Shown here: piece by piece, positions 37,598-51,289 of the stretch
Position numbering within the stretch: the stretch's first letter is position 1
How the letters are laid out: each line of letters begins with the position of its first letter
Source of the DNA: Bacteroidales bacterium
Lineage (GTDB): Bacteria > Bacteroidota > Bacteroidia > Bacteroidales > 4484-276
Length of the DNA stretch: 64,000 nucleotides
Assembly: GCA_035647615.1 (NCBI GenBank)
Contig: DASRND010000007.1
Span: 1-64,000, forward strand
Reading direction: 5' to 3'
Notes under the pieces: model-generated
The model's database searches: none
Seen by the model: only the letters and a program-made list of their open reading frames with translations
What the model was told of the DNA's origin: nothing
Program-made: the position numbers and the translations under genes

Positions 37598-38083
37598 TTA
37601 ATCAGGGAACTCTTTAAGTATGTTTTTTACATCGTCGGGAGCAATGCGCCCGAAGGTTCTGTCGCCAATCTGAGCCACCGGCGCCAAACCACAGGCACCA
37701 ACACAGCGCAGACAAGTAAGCGAAAATTTACCGTCGGGTGTCGATTCACCTACTTTGATACCCAGCTCTTTTTTGAACTCATCGAGCACTTTCTCGGCGC
37801 CGCGCACATAGCAGGCCGTGCCCATGCAAACGGAAATGGGATGTCTGCCGCGTGGTATCATCGTGAAGAACGAATAAAACGTTACCACTCCATAAACTTT
37901 AGCCAACGAAATCTTGAGCTGGTTGCTCACCACCTCCTGCACCTCGGCAGGAAGGTATCCAAACTCACCCTGTACTCTGTGAAGCACGTTTACAAGATCG
38001 CGTGGATTATTGTTGAACGAATCGCATATCTCGATGATCTTTGCGACGTCCGTTTCTTTCAATTTTACTTTTATTGATGACAT
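37598..38083 (-). CDS. hydC: NuoE-like [2Fe-2S] subunit of trimeric [FeFe] hydrogenase
   Basis: This 161-residue thioredoxin-fold protein has the four cluster cysteines in CMGTACYVRG (near residues 86-91) and CLRCVGACGLAPV (near 127-135). NuoE/HydC subunits carry one [2Fe-2S] cluster and pass electrons between HydB and the rest. It is the last gene of the run (small ferredoxin-like gene, hydB, hydA, hydC), 68 bases after hydA, and is followed by a strong terminator. In the HydABC type, NADH and reduced ferredoxin jointly supply electrons to make H2, or the reverse. Confidence 0.95.
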   Translation of the reverse strand: MSSIKVKLKETDVAKIIEICDSFNNNPRDLVNVLHRVQGEFGYLPAEVQEVVSNQLKISLAKVYGVVTFYSFFTMIPRGRHPISVCMGTACYVRGAEKVLDEFKKELGIKVGESTPDGKFSLTCLRCVGACGLAPVAQIGDRTFGRIAPDDVKNILKEFPD

Positions 38084-38151
38084 ATTTCAAAAGATATTTA
38101 CGTCAGAATTTTTTAATCAAACTATTTCCTTAATGATTTAGCCTTACCGGA

Positions 38152-39924
38152 TTACTCCTCGATAAATATTTCTTTTTTGCGGTCGAAATAATGTGTGTGG
38201 AGCAAATGGTGCGATTTTTCGCTGAGCGGTTTACCCAAGAAATCTTCGTAGAGTTTCAGGATGTATGGGTTCTCGTGCGATTTGCGCAGTACTTTTCCGG
38301 CGTCTTCGGCATAGATTGCTTTTAGTCGCGCTTTAAGGATACTGCTGTCGCCGTGGATGTAAGGCTGTCCGCCACCGCCGATACAGCCGCCGGGGCATGC
38401 CATAATCTCGATGGCGTGATAAGTGTTATTGCCTGCTTTGATGTCTTCGAGCAATTTACGCGCGTTGCCCAGTCCGTGGGCTATTCCGATATTGATAGGT
38501 AATCCGTCAAAATCGACTGTTGCCGAACGGATACCCTCCAGACCACGAAGCTGTTTAAAATCAACACTCTCAAGGGTCTTGCCGGTATGCACCTCATATG
38601 CGGTACGCACAGCAGCTTCGATTACACCACCGGTAGCGCCGAAGATAACACCAGCACCGGTAGATTCACCTAATGGAGTATCGAACTCACTGTCGGGCAG
38701 TTCTGTAAATTCGATGTTGGCACGTTTGATAAGATGTGCCAGCTCTCGTGTAGAAATAGAGTAGTCGACGTCGGGATTCCCGTCAGTTTGAAACTCCTCA
38801 CGGGTACACTCGTACTTCTTAGCCACACAGGGCATGATGGAAACCACGATGAGTTTTTCGCGATCTACTTTAATTTTATTAGCGAAATAAGTTTTGGCTA
38901 TTGCACCAAACATCTGCTGTGGTGAGCGTGCTGTTGAAGGAATTTCCTTCATCTCCGGGAAGTTGTGTTCAAAAAACTTGACCCAGGCCGGGCAGCATGA
39001 AGTGAGGATAGGCAACTTCACGTCGGGATCACCCTGCAGGTGCAGGTTAAGACGTTGAAGCAGCTCGGAGCCTTCTTCCATAATGGTAAGGTCGGCAGCA
39101 AAATCTGTATCAAATACATAATCAAATCCCAACTCACGAAGTGCGGTAGTCATTTTTCCGGTAACGAGGGTTCCCGGCTCCAAGCCGAACTCTTCGCCAA
39201 GCGCTGCACGCACTGCAGGAGCGGTTTGTACCACCACCACTTTGTCAGGATTGGACAGGTCGTTAATCAATTGGTTAGAATGGTCTACTTCTGTCAGGGC
39301 GCCGGTAGGACATACGTTTATACATTGTCCGCAATAGGTACACACGCTGTGGTCGAGGTTCATCTCGAAAGCGGGAGCTACCACCGACTGGAAACCGCGG
39401 TTTACAGCCGAAAGAACACCAACAGTCTGCACATCGTTACACATTACTTCGCAGCGACGGCACATGATGCATTTATCCATGTCGCGGATGATGGAGGGCG
39501 AAGTGTCTTCACGATAAGTGCTTTTAACACCAATAAAAGGAACATCGCGAATGCCAAGTCTAATAGCCAGATCCTGCAGCTCGCAATTGCCCGACTTGGC
39601 GCAAACCAGACAGTCGAACGGGTGGTCGCTGAGGATAAGCTGAACTACTGTTCTACGAGCGTTCAAAACACGCATCGAATGCGTATTTACTACCATGCCA
39701 GACATACATTGGGTAACGCATGAGGGAGCCAGGTTTCGGCGTCCTTCAACTTCTACAACACACACTCGGCAGCCGCCCGGTTTGTTTTCAATATTCATGT
39801 CGGGCATGCTAAGATAGCACAAGGTGGGGATGTGAATACCTATACTTTTAGCAGCATCCAGAATAGTGGTGCCTTTTTTAACTTCTACAGTTTTTTTATC
39901 TATGGTCAGACGAATCATTTCCAT
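38152..39924 (-). CDS. hydA: [FeFe] hydrogenase catalytic subunit
   Basis: This 590-residue iron-only hydrogenase has the three H-cluster motifs intact: TSCCPAW (308-314), MPCVAKKYE (364-372) and MACPGGC (508-514). The N-terminal electron relay consists of a plant-type [2Fe-2S] domain (Cys36, 52, 55, 69), a His101/Cys105/108/114 cluster, and two [4Fe-4S] sites (Cys152-162 and Cys195-205). This modular layout and its place between hydB and hydC identify the electron-bifurcating or confurcating trimeric type. Maturation genes (hydE, hydF, hydG) are not in the window. Cytoplasmic location is expected as no export signal is present. Confidence 0.97.
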   Translation of the reverse strand: MEMIRLTIDKKTVEVKKGTTILDAAKSIGIHIPTLCYLSMPDMNIENKPGGCRVCVVEVEGRRNLAPSCVTQCMSGMVVNTHSMRVLNARRTVVQLILSDHPFDCLVCAKSGNCELQDLAIRLGIRDVPFIGVKSTYREDTSPSIIRDMDKCIMCRRCEVMCNDVQTVGVLSAVNRGFQSVVAPAFEMNLDHSVCTYCGQCINVCPTGALTEVDHSNQLINDLSNPDKVVVVQTAPAVRAALGEEFGLEPGTLVTGKMTTALRELGFDYVFDTDFAADLTIMEEGSELLQRLNLHLQGDPDVKLPILTSCCPAWVKFFEHNFPEMKEIPSTARSPQQMFGAIAKTYFANKIKVDREKLIVVSIMPCVAKKYECTREEFQTDGNPDVDYSISTRELAHLIKRANIEFTELPDSEFDTPLGESTGAGVIFGATGGVIEAAVRTAYEVHTGKTLESVDFKQLRGLEGIRSATVDFDGLPINIGIAHGLGNARKLLEDIKAGNNTYHAIEIMACPGGCIGGGGQPYIHGDSSILKARLKAIYAEDAGKVLRKSHENPYILKLYEDFLGKPLSEKSHHLLHTHYFDRKKEIFIEE

Positions 39925-39948
39925 TATAATGCTTTTTTAATAGTTGGA

Positions 39949-41745
39949 TTAAACAATTTCGATAGCATTGAATTTACATTTCTCCATGCAGATTCCGCAC
40001 TTAATGCAGGTGCTTTGATCGATTTCATGCACCTGTTTGCGTTCGCCCGAAATGCAGTTAACCGGGCAGTTGCGGGCACAGGCAGTACATCCCACACAAT
40101 TGTCGGGTATGATTACGTAACGCATCAGCGACTTACAGGCGCCGGCACGGCATTTATGATCTACCACGTGCTCTACGTATTCGTCCCAGAAGTTGTTCAG
40201 TGTAGAAAGTACCGGGTTAGGTGCAGTTTGACCTAAACCACAAAGGGAAGTATCTTTGATAACGTTGCTCAAATTTTTCAGATTCTCCAGCGTCTCCATG
40301 GTTGCTTTCCCGGAGGTGACGGTTTCGAGCATTTCGTGTAAGCGTTTGTTGCCAATGCGGCATGGGCTACACTTACCACATGACTCTTCTACTGTAAATT
40401 CCAGATAAAACTTAGCCATCGAAACCATACAGTCATCTTCGTCCACTACGATCATACCACCTGATCCCATCATGGAGCCAGCTTCTACCAGCGTTTCGTA
40501 TTCGATAGGCATATCCAAGTGCTTTTTCGTTAAACATCCACCCGAAGGGCCACCGGTTTGTACAGCTTTAAATTCTTTGCCGTCTTTGATGCCACCGCCA
40601 ATTTCAAAAATTACTTCGCGCAGGGTAGTTCCCATGGGTACTTCTATCAGTCCCACGTTATTGATTTTACCCGCCAGAGCAAATACTTTGGTTCCTTTTG
40701 AACCCTTAGTGCCAATACTTGTAAACCATTCGGCGCCTTTGTTGATAATAATTGGGATGTTGGCAAAGGTTTCGACGTTGTTAACGTTGGTGGGTTTTCC
40801 CAAATAACCTTCCACCGATGGGAACGGAGGTTTAAAGGTAGGTTCGCCACGGCCGCCTTCCATCGAACTGATAAGTGCAGTTTCTTCGCCGCATACAAAA
40901 GCACCGGCGCCATAACGCAGCTCTACATGGAAATCAAAATCGGTATCGAAAATTCTCTTACCCAGCAGCCCGTATTCCATGGCCTGATCGATAGCAATCT
41001 TCAGACGTTTGATGGCCAGTGGATATTCGGCGCGTATGTAAATAAGACCTTTGTTTGCGCCAATAGCGTAGCCGCAAATGGCCATAGCTTCGAGCACTGC
41101 ATGTGGGTCGCCTTCCAGAATGGAGCGATCCATAAATGCGCCCGGGTCACCTTCGTCAGCATTACAAACAACATATTTCTGGTCGCCTGCGCTCTTGCGG
41201 GTTATATCCCACTTGAGGCCGGTAGGGAAACCAGCACCGCCACGACCGCGTAACTCTGATTTTTTTATGATGTCGATAACAGCTTCGGGTTTCATCTCTG
41301 TGAGGCATTTGCCCAAGGCTTCGTAGCCATCGCGCGCCAAATATTCTTCGATATTTTCGGGGTTAATAAAACCACAGTTGCGCAAAGCAATACGAATTTG
41401 TTTGCGGTAGAAACCCATGTGCCTACTATCGGGGACATGCTCTTTGTTTTCAGGATCAGTGTAAAGCAGGCGTTCTACCTTACGTCCTTTCAAAACATGC
41501 TCCTCCACGATTTCGCGAGCATCATCAGGTGTTACCTGTGTATAAAAAGTGTTGTCGGGATGCACTTTCACAATCGGTCCTTTTTCACAAAAGCCGAAGC
41601 ATCCTGTTCTTACCACCTTAGCTTCATTTTCAAGTCCGTGAGCTTTGAGTTCACGTATAAGCGCTGTTTCTATCAACTCGCTTTCGGAAGCCCGGCAGCC
41701 TGTACCGCCGCATACCAGCAGTTGCATTTTCAGTTGTTGTGCCAT
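39949..41745 (-). CDS. hydB: NuoF-like FMN/NADH-binding subunit of trimeric [FeFe] hydrogenase
   Basis: This 598-residue protein begins with a thioredoxin-like [2Fe-2S] domain (CGGTGCRASES, TGCFGFCEKGP; about 1-90). A NuoF core with SELRGRGGAGFPTGLKW and NADEGDPGAFMDR (NADH and FMN sites, about 165-210) follows, then ESCGKCSPCRIGNKRL for a [4Fe-4S] cluster. A C-terminal two-cluster ferredoxin domain (CVGCTACARNCP and CIKCGICMEKC) ends the protein. This is the full HydB architecture of bifurcating hydrogenases. It is flanked by hydA (24 bases) and the small ferredoxin-like gene (17 bases). Confidence 0.97.
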   Translation of the reverse strand: MAQQLKMQLLVCGGTGCRASESELIETALIRELKAHGLENEAKVVRTGCFGFCEKGPIVKVHPDNTFYTQVTPDDAREIVEEHVLKGRKVERLLYTDPENKEHVPDSRHMGFYRKQIRIALRNCGFINPENIEEYLARDGYEALGKCLTEMKPEAVIDIIKKSELRGRGGAGFPTGLKWDITRKSAGDQKYVVCNADEGDPGAFMDRSILEGDPHAVLEAMAICGYAIGANKGLIYIRAEYPLAIKRLKIAIDQAMEYGLLGKRIFDTDFDFHVELRYGAGAFVCGEETALISSMEGGRGEPTFKPPFPSVEGYLGKPTNVNNVETFANIPIIINKGAEWFTSIGTKGSKGTKVFALAGKINNVGLIEVPMGTTLREVIFEIGGGIKDGKEFKAVQTGGPSGGCLTKKHLDMPIEYETLVEAGSMMGSGGMIVVDEDDCMVSMAKFYLEFTVEESCGKCSPCRIGNKRLHEMLETVTSGKATMETLENLKNLSNVIKDTSLCGLGQTAPNPVLSTLNNFWDEYVEHVVDHKCRAGACKSLMRYVIIPDNCVGCTACARNCPVNCISGERKQVHEIDQSTCIKCGICMEKCKFNAIEIV

Positions 41746-41762
41746 ATCTTGCTTGTTACTTT

Positions 41763-42155
41763 TTAGTCAATAGATTCATAATTCACCGGGATAATACCTT
41801 CGACGAGTTCACCATTTTTGATGAATTTCTCAATGATTTCGTCGGCACGTTTTGTATCCACGTATCCAAAAACGATTGGCTCTTCGCCAGGTCTTGTCAC
41901 TTCAATTGTGGGCTCAGCATAGCAATAGCCCATGTCGCCGGTTTGTGTTACCACAGCATCGATTCCGCGTTTGTCGAGTTCTACGATGAGAAAATCCATA
42001 ATGCCCTTGGCTCCGGAGGCAATGCCACTTGTAGCCATGCCCACCTTGATCTGAACGTACTTCTCAGGATCGGCGCTTTTTTCGCGTAGGTTGAGCTGCT
42101 TCTGCTGCTCTTCCCTCATCTTACGCAACTCGGCTAAATTTTTAATTTTTGCCAT
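41763..42155 (-). CDS. Ferredoxin-like (thioredoxin-fold) small protein of the hydrogenase operon, cluster cysteines missing
   Basis: This 130-residue protein belongs to the small [2Fe-2S] ferredoxin-like proteins often encoded ahead of hydB. It has a helical N-terminus and the GMATSGIASGAKGIMDFL and GYCYAEPTIEV segments. Where relatives show a Cys in the first motif and Cys-Met-Gly-x-Cys in the second, this protein has Ser43 and Asp74, leaving only Cys78. It therefore probably binds no normal [2Fe-2S] cluster. It is the first gene of the hydrogenase operon, with a promoter about 95 bases upstream. A structural or assembly role is possible. Confidence 0.85.
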   Translation of the reverse strand: MAKIKNLAELRKMREEQQKQLNLREKSADPEKYVQIKVGMATSGIASGAKGIMDFLIVELDKRGIDAVVTQTGDMGYCYAEPTIEVTRPGEEPIVFGYVDTKRADEIIEKFIKNGELVEGIIPVNYESID

Positions 42156-42474: not shown

Positions 42475-43218
42475 TCATCTTGTAAGATCCAAAATTGCAT
42501 TTACAAAAGTCAGCGGATGAACCGGATTTCCCGGGATGTACAAATCGACGGGATATTTATCCAAAAACGTCCGATTTATGGCCGGGCTTCCGGCAAAAAT
42601 TCCACCGCTGATTGCATCAACACCAACAAGAACAACTATTTTTGGTGAAGGAATAGCATCGTAACAAATCTGTAAAGCTTCAGCCATATTTTCGGAAACA
42701 GGGCCTGTAATTACAACTCCATCGGCATGACGAGGCGATGCTACGAACTCGATTCCATAGCGACCCATATCGAAGTTTGCGTTTCCACTGGCTCCCAATT
42801 CATATTCGCACGAATTATCGCCCCCTGCCGACACTTGTCGCATTTTTATCGATCTTGAAAATGTATTTCTTACCTCTTTTCTGGTTTTATCTTTCTCAAA
42901 AATTATAGGATTTCGATCGCCTTCTTTGATAATTAAGTTTTCGCGCACATTGGATGACGTTAAATAATCCTGGGTGAATTTTATTTTTTCGGGAAAAGCA
43001 AAAGCACATTCGCCGCAAAAAGCACATTTCCCCATGTCGATCCTCACGGGATTGGCTAAAATTGCCTGCAAAGGACAAACATTTACCAGTGCCTGCTCAT
43101 CGACTTTGGCATTGGAAATTTCTGGCCGGCCTCTGAAGGGTGCTCTAAGTTTAACATTTCTCAGATCCGGAATGTACTGTCTCCCGTTGTGGAGCATTAC
43201 TTTAAATTCGTTTATCAT
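42475..43218 (-). CDS. NuoB/HyfI-like small subunit with N-terminal ferredoxin site; proximal-cluster cysteines lost
   Basis: This 247-residue protein joins a ferredoxin-like N-terminus (about 1-80) to a NuoB/HycG-like domain (about 120-245). One [4Fe-4S] site seems intact: Cys48 (VNVCP) with Cys65, 68 and 71 (CAFCGEC). In the NuoB part, ungapped comparison with group 4 hydrogenase small subunits (remembered HycG pattern CNGCE, YGACG, PGCPP) gives DNSCE (Asp134, Cys137), VGVDA (Asp201) and PGNPV (Asn231). Three of four proximal-cluster ligands are gone. Surrounding motifs such as VASPRHAD and YIPG are kept, so this is a folded family member, not random decay. It is the last gene of the operon. 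Confidence 0.9.
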   Translation of the reverse strand: MINEFKVMLHNGRQYIPDLRNVKLRAPFRGRPEISNAKVDEQALVNVCPLQAILANPVRIDMGKCAFCGECAFAFPEKIKFTQDYLTSSNVRENLIIKEGDRNPIIFEKDKTRKEVRNTFSRSIKMRQVSAGGDNSCEYELGASGNANFDMGRYGIEFVASPRHADGVVITGPVSENMAEALQICYDAIPSPKIVVLVGVDAISGGIFAGSPAINRTFLDKYPVDLYIPGNPVHPLTFVNAILDLTR

Positions 43219-43228
43219 TGCTCAAATT

Positions 43229-44752
43229 TTATAAGTCGTGACCGCAATAACTTAAATTATAACTTTTGTTGTTGATTGGAAAATCGGAGATTTCGGTATT
43301 TCTCAACGACAACTCCAAAGCTTTCCAGTTGTGCATCGAAGGGTCTTTTATTTTGTAATGCATCAACTCGCCATTTTCGTCTGTAATAGCACAATGGCAA
43401 ACTTCGCCCCGCCATGCTTCGTTGACGGAAATTGCCAGCTTACCGGGTTTCAACGGTAATTGATAATCCGGCTTTTCTGTTTTCGAGGCGTCAAATTGGT
43501 AATTACTCATCAAATTCCGTATCCAGGCAATAGCGGTTGCTATCTCTTTTCTCTTTAATAAAAATCGCGAAAAAACATCGCCGTTATCGACGACAATCAT
43601 TTCGTAAGGGAATTTTTCCATTGCCCGGTTTGGATGCGTAATTCTGATGTCTCTTTTAATCTCCGTCATCCGCGCCGACAGTCCGACAGCCCCAATTAAA
43701 CGGGCTTGCTGTGGGGTTACCTTTCCAACAAAATCGAAACGGTTCTGAATGCTCGGCAAGCGATAGGTTACGTTTGCCATTTCGTCAAACTGCTTTTCAT
43801 ATTTTAATAACATTTCGAGCAGTTCTTTTTTTAACTCTTCGGTAAAAGGAAAATTTGTTCCGCCCACCCGCACCAGACTTTTACCCAAACGATTGCCGCA
43901 CCAGAATTGTGTATAATTGATAATGGCTGTTCGCAAAATCCCGAAAACATTGGCACCAAGATGATACGCCGCATCGATGCACAACGCAGCAATATCGCCG
44001 GTATGAATGGCTATTCGTTCCAATTCCATTGCCAACGCACGTTCTATATGTGTTTGTTCGGCAACCTGCTTCCCGGCAAGCGCTTCCATTGTTTGCGCAA
44101 ACGTTGTAGTGTGTCCGATCACTGTATCGCCAGCAATGTTTTCAGCTAAAATGTTTCGTTGCAAATTTTGCTTTTTATCCAAAAAAAGCTGTTCGATGCC
44201 GCGATGCTGCCAGCCTAATTGTATTTCGAGATGCAAAACATTTTCACCGTTGCAGATAAACCGAAAATGTCCAGGCTCAATGATTCCGGCATGGATAGGC
44301 CCGACACCAACTTCGTGCAGCTCTTCGCTTTTGATAGAATAAAACGGATAATCGTTGACTTGCAATTTCTTATCGGCACGATCGTGAGCGAAGCGGACAG
44401 GCTTTGGCCAGGGATGATTTAAAAACTCAACACCAAAATTCTCGTGAATTTCACGCTCAAAAATATGCAGCGCAAAAATCTTTTCGCTTAAAGCGTGTAA
44501 TGTTTGTTTTTCGGTTGCTTTCAGAAAATGGGAAAGGATAATTATGTCGTGATTTTCATCATCGGCAATGGCCATAATAAAGTGAAGCCCACTCTCTTTT
44601 TTATAGGCAAAATAAGTAAGGCAATGGTTTTCTTCCTCTTCAAATATTTTTAAAACAAGCTCTGAAAATTCATCGTAGGAAAAATTGGGAATCTCCGCCA
44701 CGTTGACAGACTGATTGTTTTTTATTCGTAGGGTATTTTGTAATTCAATCAT
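43229..44752 (-). CDS. HyfG/HycE-like large subunit (NuoC-NuoD fusion) without NiFe ligands
   Basis: This 507-residue protein has a NuoC-like N-terminus (about 1-125, HIFEREIHENFGV) and a NuoD/HycE-like domain (GPIHAGIIEPGHFRF onward). In active group 4 hydrogenases the nickel is held by a Cys-Gly-Ile-Cys motif and a C-terminal Asp-Pro-Cys-x-x-Cys. Here the first reads IAGDT (Ala207, Thr210) and the second reads YNLSYCG (Ser501, Gly504, with an offset Cys503). It therefore cannot bind a normal NiFe site. This places it with energy-converting-hydrogenase-related (Ehr) proteins. Genes on both sides are within 11 bases. Confidence 0.92.
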   Translation of the reverse strand: MIELQNTLRIKNNQSVNVAEIPNFSYDEFSELVLKIFEEEENHCLTYFAYKKESGLHFIMAIADDENHDIIILSHFLKATEKQTLHALSEKIFALHIFEREIHENFGVEFLNHPWPKPVRFAHDRADKKLQVNDYPFYSIKSEELHEVGVGPIHAGIIEPGHFRFICNGENVLHLEIQLGWQHRGIEQLFLDKKQNLQRNILAENIAGDTVIGHTTTFAQTMEALAGKQVAEQTHIERALAMELERIAIHTGDIAALCIDAAYHLGANVFGILRTAIINYTQFWCGNRLGKSLVRVGGTNFPFTEELKKELLEMLLKYEKQFDEMANVTYRLPSIQNRFDFVGKVTPQQARLIGAVGLSARMTEIKRDIRITHPNRAMEKFPYEMIVVDNGDVFSRFLLKRKEIATAIAWIRNLMSNYQFDASKTEKPDYQLPLKPGKLAISVNEAWRGEVCHCAITDENGELMHYKIKDPSMHNWKALELSLRNTEISDFPINNKSYNLSYCGHDL

Positions 44753-44763
44753 GGCTTTACTAA

Positions 44764-46185
44764 TTATAAAATGGCAAGGGCGTTATTAATCAAATCGGTG
44801 AAAAACAAGGGTGGATTTACCCCCAGATAAATAACCAGCCCGAAAAGAACAAACTGTGAAATAGTTTCGTAAGGATTCACCTTTATCGACTCCCGATCGA
44901 CAAGATTGTCGGTTTCGCCATACAAAAGATGAAAGGCGTTTTTACTAAAAGTATAAATGATAACCGTTAACAGGATCAGAACAAAAACCGCGATGTAATA
45001 ATGCCCGTGAACAAACATGGCTTTAAAAACCAAAAACTCGCTAACGAACAGACCGGAGGGTGGAATTGCCAGAATTGAAACAATTCCCAAAATCATTGAC
45101 AAACCGCCAATCGGGTTCTTCTTAAAATAACCGGCAACATCTTTTATCCAATACGAATTGAAAAACTGATGTACCTGCCCGATTTGGTAAAACAATCCTG
45201 CCTTTGCAAACGAGTGAAATACGATGTGCAGCACGGCAGCATAATAGCCTATTCCGCCAATTCCCAACCCCAGAGCAACAAGCCCCATATGCTCCAGGCT
45301 TGAAAAAGCAAACATCCGTTTATAATGTTTGATTCTTAAAAGCTGAATAGCCGACATAAACACCGAAATAACGCCGGCAATAAGCAATACATTCTGTGCC
45401 CATTGCAGCACATCTGTTTGAGCAAGAATGGTAAAAATCCTGAAAATACCCAGGAAACCGACATTCATCAACGTAGTCGAAATAAAAGCACTGATCGGTG
45501 GCGGGGCAACAGTATGCGCGTCCACGGCAACGGTGTACAAGGGGAATATCCCCATTTTTGCACTAAAGCCTGTTAGGACTAAAAGAAAGGCCATTTTAAG
45601 CCAGACGGTATTCATGGTTTGTGTGGCATTCAACAAACGGGTCAAGCTCAAATCGGTAATGCCGATGCTACTTGCCGTGATGCTAAGGAATAATATCCCG
45701 ATAAAAGCCAGGGCGACACCTACCGACGATACAAATAAATATTTCCAGGCAGCTTCCAAAGCTTCCTTGGTTCGTTCGTGAAAAATCAAAATAGAGACGA
45801 ACAGCGTGGTGGTTTCGATGCTAATCCACAATACAGCAATGTTATCAGCAAAATAAGCGCTCAACATAGCCGTGATCAGCATAATTAATGAGGCGTAATA
45901 TCCGGCTTCCTGTGCTGCCGAAAAATGATGTCGTTGTAAATATAAAACACTGTGGTAGAAAGTTGCAACGCTCAAAATACCTAAAACAAAAGCCAGCAAA
46001 ACGCCCAGGCTATCAAATTTAAAATACAAAGAACTGGTTTCTTCGAGGTGCAGGTAGGCGTATCCGGTGATCATCAAAACAGAAAACAAAAACAGGGAGG
46101 AGATCACTTTTGTGTAACGAGCGTTTTTAACCAGAAAAATGCTCAGGCTGATGGCAATTGACAGAATGATAAATGTAAAAAACAT
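44764..46185 (-). CDS. hyfF: HyfF/NuoN-like antiporter-type membrane subunit
   Basis: This 473-residue protein has about 14 hydrophobic helices and belongs to the Mrp/NuoL-M-N proton-pumping family. Pump residues are visible: Glu in LWISIETTTLFVSIL, Lys in GFSAKMGIFPLYTVAVDAH, Lys in LRIKHYKRMFAFSSLEHMG and Lys in HSFAKAGLFYQIG. It would form a half-channel for H+ or Na+ in the inner membrane. It lies 4 bases after the HyfE-like gene and 11 before the large subunit. The symbol follows hydrogenase-4 naming; the complex itself lacks a hydrogenase site. Confidence 0.9.
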   Translation of the reverse strand: MFFTFIILSIAISLSIFLVKNARYTKVISSLFLFSVLMITGYAYLHLEETSSLYFKFDSLGVLLAFVLGILSVATFYHSVLYLQRHHFSAAQEAGYYASLIMLITAMLSAYFADNIAVLWISIETTTLFVSILIFHERTKEALEAAWKYLFVSSVGVALAFIGILFLSITASSIGITDLSLTRLLNATQTMNTVWLKMAFLLVLTGFSAKMGIFPLYTVAVDAHTVAPPPISAFISTTLMNVGFLGIFRIFTILAQTDVLQWAQNVLLIAGVISVFMSAIQLLRIKHYKRMFAFSSLEHMGLVALGLGIGGIGYYAAVLHIVFHSFAKAGLFYQIGQVHQFFNSYWIKDVAGYFKKNPIGGLSMILGIVSILAIPPSGLFVSEFLVFKAMFVHGHYYIAVFVLILLTVIIYTFSKNAFHLLYGETDNLVDRESIKVNPYETISQFVLFGLVIYLGVNPPLFFTDLINNALAIL

Positions 46186-46189
46186 AGTC

Positions 46190-46819
46190 TTAATCTTTTA
46201 GTCTGGATAGTTGATCGATTCGGGTACTTTCGAAGGTATCGCCAATGCGGTTGATAAAAACACCTAATACCAACACACCCATGAGCACGTCGAGTAATAT
46301 TGCCAAATTCACCATCATCGGCATTTCGCTACCAACCGCCAGTGAGAGCAGAAATATCCCATTTTCGATGATGAGATAACCAACGACGTGTGAAAAGATA
46401 TTTTTGTGTATAATGATGAAATAAATACCAAACAAAACAGATGCGAAGGAAACCGTAAAGTACCGGGTGTGAATGTGGTCGCTGTTTAAATTGTTGCTTA
46501 TTAAAAAACTAACCACCAAACTAATTACCACCACTATGATCGAATAAAAAACCGGAACCGACACTTCTTGTGTTCGTTTCAGATTATTGCGTTTTCGCAC
46601 TTTGTTGATGAACCAGGGTACTATGATCGACTTTACCAAAATGGTTTCAGTAAGAATGAAGATAAAATCGAATAATTCAATTTCATTTAAACTGAAAAAT
46701 ACAATCGCAAACAGAATGATTCCTTGAATTACCAGCAGCCACACAAATTTTTTTACCCGCTCCGAAAGAGCGAAATAAATTAAGGTAACTGCGTAAAGAA
46801 TAATAAATAAATAGGCCAT
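46190..46819 (-). CDS. hyfE: HyfE-like membrane subunit (NuoK-related)
   Basis: This 209-residue protein has six or seven hydrophobic helices, with the NuoK-like part in the second half (IIENGIFLLSLAVG carrying a conserved Glu, then MVNLAILLDVLMGVLVLGVF). The family lines the proton path between the peripheral arm and antiporter subunits of group 4 complexes. One base separates it from the HyfC-like gene and four bases from the HyfF-like gene, so all are on one transcript. Confidence 0.88.
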   Translation of the reverse strand: MAYLFIILYAVTLIYFALSERVKKFVWLLVIQGIILFAIVFFSLNEIELFDFIFILTETILVKSIIVPWFINKVRKRNNLKRTQEVSVPVFYSIIVVVISLVVSFLISNNLNSDHIHTRYFTVSFASVLFGIYFIIIHKNIFSHVVGYLIIENGIFLLSLAVGSEMPMMVNLAILLDVLMGVLVLGVFINRIGDTFESTRIDQLSRLKD

Positions 46820-46820
46820 T

Positions 46821-47735
46821 TTAGTTCAATATTATTTTTTGCGTCATGATTAAAGCAGTGAGAAATACCACAACCGAGATGGCTGAGAGCATGAGAATCC
46901 ATTGCGGATTTTTTTCCATTTTGTTTCTTGCCCTAAAAGCCTCTAACATCCCCACCGCAACAGAATAAGCAAACTGAATTCCGAAAAAGGCAAGAATTTG
47001 CCAATGGATTGCCCACGAACCTTTAATGATAAAATTAGAGATTAATCCTCCGAAAATTGCAAATTTCAGCCACGATGCCATGTGTATCAATGCCAGGTCG
47101 AAACCACTATTATCGAGAACCATTACTTCGTGAACCATCGTCAGCTCCAGGTGGGTTTTGGGATCGTCGACCGGCATTCTCGAGTTTTCAACCATTGCTA
47201 TAAATACCAAAACATAAATAGAAGCGACGCCGATGATGTAAGAAAGGTTGCTGCCAACATTAAAATTTAAAAATAAATCGTGGAAGGAAATATTATTGGT
47301 AAACAACGCCACCGACCCAATCAGAATGAAGAATGCAGGCTCTACCAACATGGAATACAAAGACTCACGATTGGCTCCCATTCCTTCAAAGCCGCTGCCG
47401 GTGTCCATTGCTGCCGCAATCATCATAAATTTTCCAATCCCCAATAAATAGGCAAAAAACACAAAATCGCCTTCAAAGGATAAAATAGATTTGAACGAAC
47501 CGACTGGAATAAATAACGTGGCCACCAACGCAGAGGAAAAATAGATTAAAGGTGCAATTTTGAAAATAACACTCGTTGTGCGACTGTAAATAGCTCCTTT
47601 TTTGAACAACCGGATTACATCATAAACCGGCTGAAGAATCGGAGGCATTTTCCGGGCAGCAATTTTGGCCTTTACCCTCACGATAATCCCTACAAAAAAC
47701 AACGAAGAGATCAGTATCAATAGCAGACTAACCAT
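46821..47735 (-). CDS. hyfC: HyfC/NuoH-like membrane subunit
   Basis: This 304-residue protein has eight predicted membrane helices and the NuoH/HycD signature. PVYDVIRLFKKGAI lies near residues 38-51, and VENSRMPVDDPKTHLELTMVHE near 185-206 has acidic residues typical of the quinone-site loop in NuoH and its relatives. It anchors the peripheral arm in the membrane and links it to the pump subunits. Its start lies one base after the HyfB-like stop. Confidence 0.9.
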   Translation of the reverse strand: MVSLLLILISSLFFVGIIVRVKAKIAARKMPPILQPVYDVIRLFKKGAIYSRTTSVIFKIAPLIYFSSALVATLFIPVGSFKSILSFEGDFVFFAYLLGIGKFMMIAAAMDTGSGFEGMGANRESLYSMLVEPAFFILIGSVALFTNNISFHDLFLNFNVGSNLSYIIGVASIYVLVFIAMVENSRMPVDDPKTHLELTMVHEVMVLDNSGFDLALIHMASWLKFAIFGGLISNFIIKGSWAIHWQILAFFGIQFAYSVAVGMLEAFRARNKMEKNPQWILMLSAISVVVFLTALIMTQKIILN

Positions 47736-47736
47736 C

Positions 47737-49719
47737 TTAGATCAAATTAAAAAAGTTGAGTAAAAAAATAAGGGCTAAAAACACGAGAGCATACAGCAAA
47801 TAGTGTTGGATTTTACCCGTTTGGAAAACAGCAATTTTCTCCATCCAGACCAATAACTTATTTCCGGGTCTGGTTATTAAATTGTCTTCGAAAACATCGC
47901 TGGAACGGGTCTTAAATTCCCGGTTCTGAGGGAATATTTCAGCTTCATCAAAATCTTTAAAATCATTTTTAACATTTACAACTTTTGATGTTAACTGCAC
48001 AAAATTGTCGGCGTAAGATGCTGCTGTGTATTGATGCAAAGCTGGATTGGCTCCTGAATACGCGCAGCCCCATGTAGCATTTTGTTTTACAATTTGCTGC
48101 TTTTGCTGCCAGGCTCTTAACAGCCATAATGAACCAATAAGTATTATAAAAATGCCGGAAGACAAACTAATGTAATTCAACGTTGGAATTATGCGCTGAA
48201 GGGCAAGAGTATCGGCTGAAAACAAGACGACTACCTGAGAGATCAGACGCGTAAAAATGACAGGAATAAAACCAATGACTATTATAAAAAAACCAATCAA
48301 AAAATCAGGAATCAACATCTGTTTCCCAACCTCGGTGGCATGTTCCACTTTGGATGACCGGGCTGTTCCGAGAAAAATAACGCTGAACACTTTGGTAAAA
48401 CAAAACACAGCCAAACCGCCAATAATAGCCAATCCGATAAAACTGAACATGAGTACAATGTCGATGTATAAAGTTGCCGAACGAAGCGATTTAAAAATTC
48501 CGGAATAAATTAAGAACTCGGAAATAAAGCCGTTAAACGGGGGCAACCCACTAATTGCCAATGCTCCGAGGAGAAAGAACAAGGCGGTTTTAGGCATTTT
48601 TTTAATTAAACCTCCAAGCTGCTCAATGTTTCGTGTGTGGGTTTGTTTGTAAACCGAGCCAACGGCATAAAAAAGTAATGACTTGAAAAGAGAGTGGTTT
48701 AGGATGTGTAAAATTCCGCCGCCAAAACCAAGAACGGCAAGCACCGGCATGCTTTCGGCAATTCCGATAACACCCAAACCTATCCCTATGCCGATAATCC
48801 CAATGTTCTCGATACTGCTATAGGCCAATATTTTTTTTGAGTCCTTCTGAACAATGGCCAGCGAAATGCCCGTTAAACCGGTTATCAGCGAAACAATCAG
48901 AATAAATAAACCAATATTAAGCAAATCGTGAGGGATATACAACAACACGCGAAGGATGCCGTAGATGCCCATTTTGATCATCACGCCACTCATTACCCCC
49001 GAAACGTGCGAAGGTGCAGCCGGGTGTGCATGGGGCAACCAGGAATGTAACGGGATAAATCCGGCCTTAATTCCGAACCCGACAAAAAACAGTATAAAAA
49101 GCCAAAACGGATTATGTGATGCAAAATAAACCGACAGACCGTCGAAACTAAGTTCTGCGTTTGTCTGCACATAGGCGACAATAAATGCAACCATCAGAAA
49201 GACAACCCCCACATGCATTTGTATCAGATAATTAATGCCAATTTTTATGGTTTCCTTTTTTTCTGATTCAAAAATTACAAGGAAAAATGAGGAGAGCGAC
49301 ATAATTTCCCAAATCATCAAAAAAGCAATGGCATCGCGGACAATTACAACCAAAAGCATTGAAATGTGAAGCCATAAAAAATTAAAGAAATGCCAGCCCA
49401 TCTCCGCTTTACTTTTTGTATTGAAATAGGGTTGTAAATAGCCTTTGGCGTAAATAATACCGGTAAGTACCGTAAAATTTATGACCAGCATAAAGAAGGC
49501 GGATAGTTGGTCTATTTTGATGAATAGGGTGTTTCCCAAAAACGGGGTAAATGGCAGCGTTAACGTGGATGAGAATGCTAAAACGTTAATGAGCCAGATG
49601 CTTGAAATAGTAATAATTGCAAGATGCAATGCCAAACCAAAATAATACTGATACTTTTTTGGAAGCAGAAACAAAACAAATGTAAGGAGTATCGCAATTT
49701 TAAATAAAACAATTGTCAT
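47737..49719 (-). CDS. hyfB: HyfB/NuoL-like antiporter-type membrane subunit
   Basis: This 660-residue protein has about 16 membrane helices and is the first gene of the Ehr-like operon. Pump residues are conserved: Glu in LMIWEIMSLSSFF, Lys in FGIKAGFIPLHSWLPHAHPA, Lys in HILNHSLFKSLLFYA and Glu in PFNGFISEFLIY. The C-terminal extension includes TWGCAYSGANPALHQYTAASY, a hallmark of the HyfB group, and a final membrane helix. With intact pump residues, ion translocation is likely even though the redox sites of the peripheral subunits have changed. Confidence 0.93.
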   Translation of the reverse strand: MTIVLFKIAILLTFVLFLLPKKYQYYFGLALHLAIITISSIWLINVLAFSSTLTLPFTPFLGNTLFIKIDQLSAFFMLVINFTVLTGIIYAKGYLQPYFNTKSKAEMGWHFFNFLWLHISMLLVVIVRDAIAFLMIWEIMSLSSFFLVIFESEKKETIKIGINYLIQMHVGVVFLMVAFIVAYVQTNAELSFDGLSVYFASHNPFWLFILFFVGFGIKAGFIPLHSWLPHAHPAAPSHVSGVMSGVMIKMGIYGILRVLLYIPHDLLNIGLFILIVSLITGLTGISLAIVQKDSKKILAYSSIENIGIIGIGIGLGVIGIAESMPVLAVLGFGGGILHILNHSLFKSLLFYAVGSVYKQTHTRNIEQLGGLIKKMPKTALFFLLGALAISGLPPFNGFISEFLIYSGIFKSLRSATLYIDIVLMFSFIGLAIIGGLAVFCFTKVFSVIFLGTARSSKVEHATEVGKQMLIPDFLIGFFIIVIGFIPVIFTRLISQVVVLFSADTLALQRIIPTLNYISLSSGIFIILIGSLWLLRAWQQKQQIVKQNATWGCAYSGANPALHQYTAASYADNFVQLTSKVVNVKNDFKDFDEAEIFPQNREFKTRSSDVFEDNLITRPGNKLLVWMEKIAVFQTGKIQHYLLYALVFLALIFLLNFFNLI

Positions 49720-49755: not shown

Positions 49756-49763
49756 CAAAATTA
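49756..49763 (-). promoter_or_regulatory. -7 element (minus strand TAATTTTG) for the Ehr-like operon
   Basis: The minus strand reads TAATTTTG about 37 bases before the hyfB-like ATG at 49719. The 230 bases up to the ndh stop hold no convincing gene. A short inverted repeat TTTCTTC/GAAGAAA lies near 49799-49819. Confidence 0.5.
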
Positions 49764-49996: not shown

Positions 49997-51289
49997 TTAT
50001 CCGGCCTGGTTTTTTCCGGAAGAACATGGTTCATCAGATTGTGTGAGGATCAATCGAAGCGACGAGTTTTTGGTGACGTACACCCAGGCCCAGTCGATGA
50101 AGATGATTATTTTGCTGCGCACATTCAGGATGAGCATCAGATGCAGAAACATCCATACAAACCAGGCAAAATATCCTTTGAAGCTGGTAAATGGGAAATC
50201 GACCACTGCCTTGTTTCGGCCAATGGTTGCCATGGAACCAAGGTCCTTGTATTCGTAATCCACCGGTACCTTTCCCCTACCCAACCTCTTAAGATTTTTT
50301 GCTAAATTCTTACCCTGGTTTATCGCCACATTGGCCACCTGAGGATGCCCCTTTGGGTACTTGGGTGTTTCCATGTAGGCAATGTCGCCAATGGCAAAAA
50401 CATTTTCACTTCCTGCCATTTGATTTATTCGATTTACAATGATACGGTTTCCGTGCGTGATGCTGCTTGCAGGCAAGCCCTCAAGCTGGTTGGCTATAAC
50501 TCCGGCGGTCCATATCACGGTTTTCGTAAGTATTTTGCTGCCATTGTTCAGGGTAAGGATATCGCCATCATAATCGGTTACAAATGTTTCGGTAAGCAGC
50601 CTCACGCCCATACCCTCAAGGTATTTTTGTGAAGCATGACGTGCCTTCCCGCTCATATTGTTCAGGGTATGCCTGGTACCCTCTACTAACGTGATATTGA
50701 ATTTTGAGAAATCGATGCGGGGATAATCTTTTGGGAGGATGTTTTTTCTGATTTCGGCAAAAGCGCCTGCCAGCTCCACTCCGGTAGGCCCGGCACCTAC
50801 AATCACGAGGTTTCGCAATGCCTCCTTATTCTCCTCTTTTGCTGAAGCAATCTTTTCGAAGGTTTGCAAAATGTGGTTACGGATTTTTATGGCATCGTAG
50901 GTGCTTTTTAAAGTATGAGAATGACGGCAAATTTTATCATTCCCAAAAAAATTGGTCTTACAGCCTATGCCAATCACCAGATAATCATAGTTGAAATCGC
51001 CAATGGTGGTGCGTATTTTATTTTCTTCGGGAAAAACGTGGGTCACTTCTGCCAACCTGATCACCACATTGGTTTTGTTTTTAAAAACATAGCGGAGAGG
51101 GAAAGAGATATTAGCCGGTTCAATTTGCGAAGTGGCCACCTGGTAAAACAATGGCTGAAACTGATGATGGTTTATTTTGTCGATCAGCAACACATCGAAC
51201 AAATTTTTATCCAACTGCCTTGTTATCGGAATGCCGGCAAACCCGCCACCCACAACTATTACCTTCTTTTTTTTTCTCTCCTTTTTCAT
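49997..51289 (-). CDS. ndh: Type II NADH dehydrogenase (NDH-2-like)
   Basis: This 430-residue flavoprotein would oxidise NADH and reduce a quinone without pumping ions. It has two Rossmann motifs: VIVVGGGFAGIPITRQL (FAD, near residues 9-25) and VIVGAGPTGVELAGAF (NADH, near 162-177). NVFAIGDIAYM is the second FAD contact, and a C-terminal amphipathic or membrane segment (YFAWFVWMFLHLMLIL) attaches it to the inner membrane. The presence of NDH-2 suggests a quinone-based respiratory chain in addition to fermentation. It lies 40 bases after the DUF488 gene. Confidence 0.93.
   Translation of the reverse strand: MKKERKKKKVIVVGGGFAGIPITRQLDKNLFDVLLIDKINHHQFQPLFYQVATSQIEPANISFPLRYVFKNKTNVVIRLAEVTHVFPEENKIRTTIGDFNYDYLVIGIGCKTNFFGNDKICRHSHTLKSTYDAIKIRNHILQTFEKIASAKEENKEALRNLVIVGAGPTGVELAGAFAEIRKNILPKDYPRIDFSKFNITLVEGTRHTLNNMSGKARHASQKYLEGMGVRLLTETFVTDYDGDILTLNNGSKILTKTVIWTAGVIANQLEGLPASSITHGNRIIVNRINQMAGSENVFAIGDIAYMETPKYPKGHPQVANVAINQGKNLAKNLKRLGRGKVPVDYEYKDLGSMATIGRNKAVVDFPFTSFKGYFAWFVWMFLHLMLILNVRSKIIIFIDWAWVYVTKNSSLRLILTQSDEPCSSGKNQAG

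Follow-up and report, generated by a model that had tools for sequence, protein, structure and literature searches.

Energy-converting hydrogenase-related (Ehr) complexes are defined in published accounts by their missing NiFe ligands, and their function has been left open (PMC6349859, PMC10284858, PMC7894505, PMC4378227). Examples include Geobacter GSU0739-0745 and the complexes of comammox Nitrospira and Margulisbacteria (PMC7894505, PMC10284858, PMC6349859). In the membrane-bound sulfane reductase (MBS) of Pyrococcus the proximal cluster is site-differentiated, held by three cysteines and catalytic, and it reduces polysulfide (PMC7684303). For DAB2, it has been proposed that a NuoL-like subunit uses PMF to drive CO2 hydration (PMC13144422). 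In complex I, it has long been asked how N2/quinone-cavity chemistry is coupled to distant proton pumping in the membrane.

Here we describe an Ehr-type operon located in a stretch of 64,000 nucleotides from a Bacteroidales bacterium, which is referred to as the window. We consider it to encode an Ehr-family, complex-I-like ion translocator whose driving event would be something other than N2-mediated electron transfer, a proposal for which we judge the chances to be evenly balanced.

Organisation and distribution of the operon

The six ORFs all lie on the minus strand at 42475-49719 and are transcribed in the order B, C, E, F, L and S with intergenic gaps of 1, 1, 4, 11 and 10 bases. Subunit identities were assigned from Pfam and NCBIfam profiles. 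The first gene encodes a HyfB-like antiporter subunit, which is NuoL/M-like with a C-terminal extension (47737..49719, 660 aa; Proton_antipo_M), and it is followed by a HyfC/NuoH-like subunit (46821..47735, 304 aa; NADHdh), a HyfE-like (NuoK/J-like) subunit (46190..46819, 209 aa; Oxidored_q2 / hydrogenase 4 membrane subunit) and a HyfF-like antiporter subunit (44764..46185, 473 aa; Proton_antipo_M). The last two genes encode the Ehr-type large subunit L, a HyfG/HycE-like fusion of NuoC and NuoD (43229..44752, 507 aa; Complex1_30kDa+49kDa), and the HyfI/NuoB-like small subunit S with an N-terminal half-ferredoxin (42475..43218, 247 aa; Oxidored_q6). The original prediction of six tightly packed Hyf-like genes with gaps of 1-11 bases agrees with these ORFs, gaps and profile matches. 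A promoter-like element of the Bacteroidota -7 type, TAATTTTG, was located by eye on the minus strand at 49756..49763, which is 36 bases 5' of the B start. Just upstream of the operon is a type II NADH dehydrogenase gene (NDH2_C; 49997-51289, minus strand), and no complex I was found in this genome.

The charged residues of the membrane subunits are retained. These are E138, K218, K249, K346 and E401 in HyfB and E124, K210, K328 and E383 in HyfF for the pump, E58, K63, E152 and D177 in the HyfE-like subunit, and the E-channel and loop charges of HyfC (D111, E117, E124, E132, E183, R186, D190, E197, E203, D208 and E265). The pump and E-channel residues were observed to be invariant or almost so in family alignments of 59-71 sequences, so that the Glu and Lys pump residues noted before in HyfB and HyfF are seen across the relatives as well.

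Scanning 84,980 genomes turned up 80 loci. Most are from Bacteroidota, and a small number carry the labels Delongbacteria, Planctomycetes, Scalindua or Gastranaerophilales; some of these phylum labels of MAGs may be wrong. The complex was present in 16 of 395 genomes, from 14 genera, in an even sample of the class. Other classes of the phylum and the Planctomycetota supplied further relatives; in the latter, some very long L frames in high-GC genomes are overlapping-frame artefacts of ORF calling. The six ORFs are intact in scores of species. Variations on the gene order were also noticed. Two Ehr-type complexes occur in tandem in L014, L016, L022 and L023; in the L022 and L023 tandems the first copy is N2-intact without a fused ferredoxin and the second is N2-less. 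Two HyfB genes, which give three antiporter-like subunits, are found in L027, L028, L039, L041, L044, L048, L141, L143, L149, L151 and L153, and L027 has two B-C-E-F sets with a single L and a single S. An ion-channel-like gene (Ion_trans, L037:17235-17918) overlaps the end of S in one locus.

The former NiFe and N2 sites

The large subunit was aligned by phmmer to HycE (7z0s), MbhL (6cfw) and Nqo4, together with a family alignment, and in these A207, T210, S501 and G504 occupy the NiFe ligand positions. The stretches A207-G-D-T210 and S501-Y-C-G504 stand in place of CxxC...CxxC, so that all four NiFe cysteines are gone. The first former NiFe motif (N205-H214, NIAGDTVIGH) is located at 44111..44140 on the minus strand and contains the invariant D209, and the second was found by family alignment to run with the C-terminal tail as NKSYNLSYCGHDL at 43232..43270 on the same strand. 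The group 4 [NiFe] hydrogenase ligand motifs RxCGxC and DPCxxC are absent from the window's L in the alignment. Across the N2-less group (79 homologues) the ligand positions were observed to be A (72), T (4), G (2) or C (1) at the first, T (74) or S (5) at the second, S (78) at the third and G (77) or A (1) at the fourth, with D209 present in 79/79 and Y502 in 78/78. Since the 79 homologues have like residues in an equal pattern, neither a sequencing error nor shifted cysteines can account for the loss of the NiFe ligands, and the four replacements named originally are borne out by the HycE and MbhL alignment as well. The L alignment, the subunit set and the tree, in which the window's L groups with other Ehr-type large subunits among the fetched relatives, agree on the earlier assignment to an Ehr-type complex without NiFe ligands.

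The same columns read RICGVC and ELCYSC in the NiFe-bearing relatives L095-L097, and the C-terminal tail is common to these and to the Ehr-type relatives. These three are Planctomycetota relatives (L095:9547-12033, L096:8841-11741 and L097:9053-11679) in which all four NiFe cysteines (RICGVC...ELCYSC) are combined with the Ehr-type C-terminal NKSF tail. They are probably genuine hydrogenases close to the Ehr root.

Alignment with MbhJ, HycG and NuoB shows that S is also without the ligands of the proximal cluster N2, which had been overlooked in the original prediction. In the aligned former N2 site (42526..42819, minus strand) D134, C137, D201 and N231 are found for CxxC...C...C, and an MBS-type proximal cluster on three cysteines is not present in the alignment of window-type S. 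The N2 ligand set is missing in all 72 window-type S sequences (mostly Bacteroidota), and each of the 72 has an acid at position 134 or 137. About one third of the sequences lack Cys137. Position 201 is Asp (Glu in two) and position 231 is Asn. In one clade (L027, L028, L030, L036, L037, L046 and close relatives) the Asp stands at 137 instead of 134, a shift that is one event on the tree. Fifteen further genomes were fetched only after the pattern had been written down, and the N2-less pattern with an acid, Asp/Glu and Asn fits all 14 of their readable S genes.

These replacements are conserved and not random, and an acid is always kept despite the shift from 134 to 137. Such conservation might be expected if N2 had been replaced by another metal centre (an Mg, Fe or Zn ion or an unusual cluster) on Asp134|137, Asp201 and Asn231, with electron transfer continuing through it. 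However, these are hard O-ligands, and Cys137 is missing from the third of sequences mentioned above. To our knowledge, hard O-ligands without a cysteine are unlike any known 4Fe-4S site, and we regard such a centre as quite improbable.

The N-terminus of S is half of an 8Fe ferredoxin. Motif 1 (VDEQALVNVCP) is without its first three cysteines and motif 2 (CAFCGEC) is intact, which, by the usual rule for 8Fe ferredoxins, presumably leaves one complete site in S that is equivalent to N6b of complex I. This single N6b-type [4Fe-4S] site (C48, C65, C68 and C71; 43006..43077, minus strand) is invariant in 74/74 sequences, and its invariance argues that some redox event still counts, a point against our proposal. 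HyfA, HyfD and HyfH had been described as missing from the operon; there are indeed no separate genes for them, but half of HyfH is fused to the N-terminus of S. The complex is therefore not simply missing HyfH, because one N6b-type cluster persists in the fused half-ferredoxin.

Predicted models of S and L, made as monomers, have the expected folds with pLDDT of 90.9 and 89.1, respectively. The best structural match of L is HycE (7z0s_E) and those of S are MbhJ and HycG, with residues 112-247 of the S model superimposing on HycG at Z 13.9 and 2.1 A over 135 residues. Low-confidence stretches of the L model are residues 151-157 (beta1-beta2 loop region) and 503-507 (C-terminus).

The loss of two catalytic centres could also be the mark of a degenerate or decaying operon without function. 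For the L gene, comparison of the window with the 93% identical L021 gave dN 0.04 and dS 0.58 (dN/dS about 0.07), and pN was low relative to pS elsewhere in the comparisons. The survival of all six ORFs across scores of species, the invariant pump and E-channel residues and purifying selection on the genes all argue against decay, and intact ORFs with low dN/dS rule out pseudogenes. We therefore hold a functionless operon to be extremely improbable.

Judged from their ligand motifs, the centres vanish in steps among living relatives, from NiFe, N6a, N6b and N2 to N6a, N6b and N2 and then to N6b only. The NiFe cysteines, N6a, N6b and N2 are all present in L095-L097. In L087-L091 and L093, as in most of the Planctomycetota relatives, NiFe is gone but N6a, N6b and N2 are kept. 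On another branch, L085, L086, L118, L080 and L081 have lost N6a and kept N6b and N2. The window clade has N6b only. The four N2 cysteines (CCCC) are kept in the Ehr-type relatives outside the window clade. In a quick unrooted tree of the fetched relatives, a single group with 100 SH-aLRT joins the N2-less rows to L084, which has all three clusters and no firm position within the group. A single loss of N2 followed by long retention would therefore be the simplest reading. The tree row L120 ('ICCC') was wrongly labelled as 'lost' and is a complex-I-like NuoB with adjacent cysteines.

Gene neighbours and the driving event

In the mechanism that we propose, the electron wire to the catalytic cavity would have been dismantled with the loss of NiFe, N2 and N6a, and the membrane pump and coupling charges would have been kept. 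Ion movement via HyfB, HyfF and the HyfC E-channel may then be tied to an event in the L/S cavity, either protonation or the binding of a ligand, and not to electron transfer from N2. The coupling cavity would be the old N2/NiFe region with Asp134|137, Asp201 and Asn231 of S and Asp209, Ser501 and Tyr502 of L. The remaining N6b-type cluster could be structural, or it could be a redox sensor that gates the transporter. A new cofactor at the Asp/Asn site, which may exist, would count against this mechanism. An ion pump or antiporter with some drive other than H2 chemistry had been suggested before; the exclusion of H2 chemistry stands, and the pump or antiporter role is still inferred.

The main rival to a non-redox mechanism would be a redox enzyme ending at N6b, one step past MBS. 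Electrons would pass from a ferredoxin, perhaps shared with HydABC, to the N6b-type cluster and then to a small substrate in the vacated N2 pocket. The four invariant N6b cysteines and the ferredoxin-like N-terminus of S are consistent with this, and there is a precedent in MBS, whose proximal cluster carries out the catalysis (PMC7684303). The genes of an [FeFe] hydrogenase (HydA of group A6, NuoF-like HydB, NuoE-like HydC and a 130-aa 2Fe-2S-like protein; 37598-42155, minus strand) are also located downstream of the Ehr operon after a 320-base gap. In L014 the complex likewise has HydA/HydB-like genes nearby, and in L008 it has a HydB-like gene. However, the pairing is not general among the relatives, and HydABC has its own promoter-like element TAATTTTG (42259-42252, minus strand, by eye), so that HydABC is ruled out as an obligatory partner. 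Furthermore, no terminal redox cofactor was recognisable in L or S. Going by complex I, the distance from N6b to the NiFe/quinone region without N2 would be about 20 A or more, and electron tunnelling over such a gap to the cavity would be slow. A redox pump of this kind is in our view doubtful.

The window's assembly (3.75 Mb, 95% complete) was also searched with profiles for other sources of these subunits. It has one PF00346 gene and one PF01058 gene, both of which are inside the Ehr operon, and no second complex-I-type large or small subunit was found in this 95% complete assembly. Therefore, neither a complex I nor a stand-in small subunit was found. A NADH module (NuoEFG) is absent from the Ehr operon, and the NuoE/F-like genes nearby are part of HydABC. 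An RnfC homologue well above the cut-off was observed (G000:C10:71626-72909), and the window's genome probably has an Rnf complex.

Neighbours of the operon in part of the family point elsewhere. A SulP gene directly follows the 3' end of S in several Cytophagia/Saprospiria loci; this arrangement was seen in L028, L029, L031, L032, L034, L054, L076, L077 and L150 and in the N2-intact sister L084. SulP is 5' of the operon in one family. SulP was found in 15 of 34 Ehr-bearing genomes, at about one copy each, and lies beside the Ehr operon in 8 of the 15. Five of these eight genomes are of one family, which leaves about four independent placements (L093 included) against roughly 0.1 expected for random positions, a rough figure calculated with 17 genes, a span of 24 kb and a genome size of about 4.2 Mb. 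The link between SulP and Ehr is recurrent but not general, because adjacency was 1/15 in the even class sample. DabA (PF10070) is rare, being found in 3/34 Ehr-bearing genomes, and is beside the complex in the Bacteroidota loci L027, L030, L036, L046 and L054 and in the NiFe-bearing L095, where DabAB is upstream. The neighbour clusters K7, K10-K16 and K27-K30 appear to be synteny among close relatives.

A gene for a SulP-STAS-EIIA2 fusion is inserted between EhrL and EhrS in one locus (L093:5940-8138). In addition, a regulator with HTH_17 and PTS_EIIA_2 domains often opens N2-intact Ehr operons and often overlaps the HyfB start (for example L087:1458-2129, L107:1266-1994, L105:15409-16185 and L118:3320-3988). 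An IPH motif was observed at the expected phospho-His place in some of these regulators (L099, L105-L107 and L118) and not in others, and the window clade is without such a regulator at the operon head. The EIIA-2 domain in the SulP of L093, together with the HTH/EIIA-2 regulators heading N2-intact Ehr operons, suggests that SulP, regulator and Ehr may be one module. The 223-aa gene of L118 was first matched as SulP and is actually the HTH and PTS EIIA-2 protein, and a SulP-carbonic anhydrase fusion suspected from length was unsupported by Pfam.

The neighbouring genes for SulP anion transporters and for CO2 hydration by DabAB hint at a role in inorganic-carbon transport, and a plausible job of the complex would be to energise or perform HCO3-/CO2 handling with SulP-type transporters. 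As a further rival, the complex would be driven by PMF as in DAB2 or cyanobacterial NDH-1MS, and proton flow through the antiporter subunits would drive CO2 hydration or bicarbonate uptake with SulP. The recurrent placements of SulP, its position beside S in a number of lineages, the N2-intact sister L084 among them, and the presence of so rare a gene as DabA beside the complex are in favour, and a NuoL-like subunit driving CO2 hydration is a precedent (PMC13144422). Against it, no invariant Zn-binding set was recognised in L or S, and SulP is missing from about half of the Ehr genomes; the low adjacency in the even sample weighs in the same direction. SulP proteins carry several anions, and the best PDB match of the SulP here, BicA, has a small margin over SLC26Dg that is not decisive for the substrate. 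The locus with DabAB upstream is a NiFe-bearing relative, and DabA was not found in the window's genome, in which the single SulP is on contig 3, away from the Ehr operon. A PMF-driven inorganic-carbon complex is unlikely in our estimation. The most far-reaching reading would be a complex-I-family pump without electron delivery to the cavity, in which the N2 site would have been rebuilt as a carboxylate site and the drive or gating would be non-redox, possibly tied to CO2/HCO3-; taken with all these parts, it falls a little short of an even chance.

Comparison with known systems

NiFe-less Ehr complexes were already known, and the loss of the N2 site, as read from the alignments, is new here. 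No report of an N2-less Ehr member or of an Ehr-SulP link was found in the open-access literature, and this silence is weak evidence of absence because only open-access papers were covered. With a clade that has coupling charges, E-channel and pumps but neither N2 nor the active site, the requirements of the pump can be told apart from those of redox chemistry. Because the metal site and its feeding cluster are lost and the pumping parts are intact, it is a natural test of the pump's need for electron flow, and the graded intermediates among living relatives add to its value for the coupling question. Testable handles for the Ehr family are provided by the acidic old-N2 site, the one cluster that is kept and the neighbouring SulP/DabAB genes.

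The complex resembles Ehr in that group-4-like L and S occur together with HyfB/C/E/F-type membrane subunits and NiFe ligands are absent, and it shares the C-terminal NKSxxLSY tail of L with the fetched N2-intact Ehr-type relatives. Those relatives have four N2 cysteines and most also have N6a, whereas the window-type clade has lost both; N2 retention was seen in the Ehr-type relatives here and is not part of the published Ehr definitions. As in MBS, the NiFe cysteines are lost (partly in MBS), the pump is retained and cluster chemistry at the proximal site is altered, but in window-type S the proximal cluster ligands are gone. The subunit plan and fold are those of group 4 [NiFe] hydrogenases (Hyf/Hyc, Ech and MBH), from which the complex differs in having no NiFe ligands, no N2 ligands and no separate HyfH, HyfA or HyfD. 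DAB2/MpsAB and NDH-1MS likewise have antiporter-like subunits, which serve CO2 uptake or, in DAB, work without conventional redox chemistry, and DabAB is an occasional neighbour of the Ehr complex in relatives, although unlike DAB there is no DabA in the window's operon or genome. The NuoH-type E-channel, the antiporter subunits and the NuoB/NuoCD folds are shared with respiratory complex I, which differs in its NADH module and in the N2 ligands of its small subunit. Unlike in the Mrp antiporter, the antiporter subunits here come with the peripheral subunits L and S.
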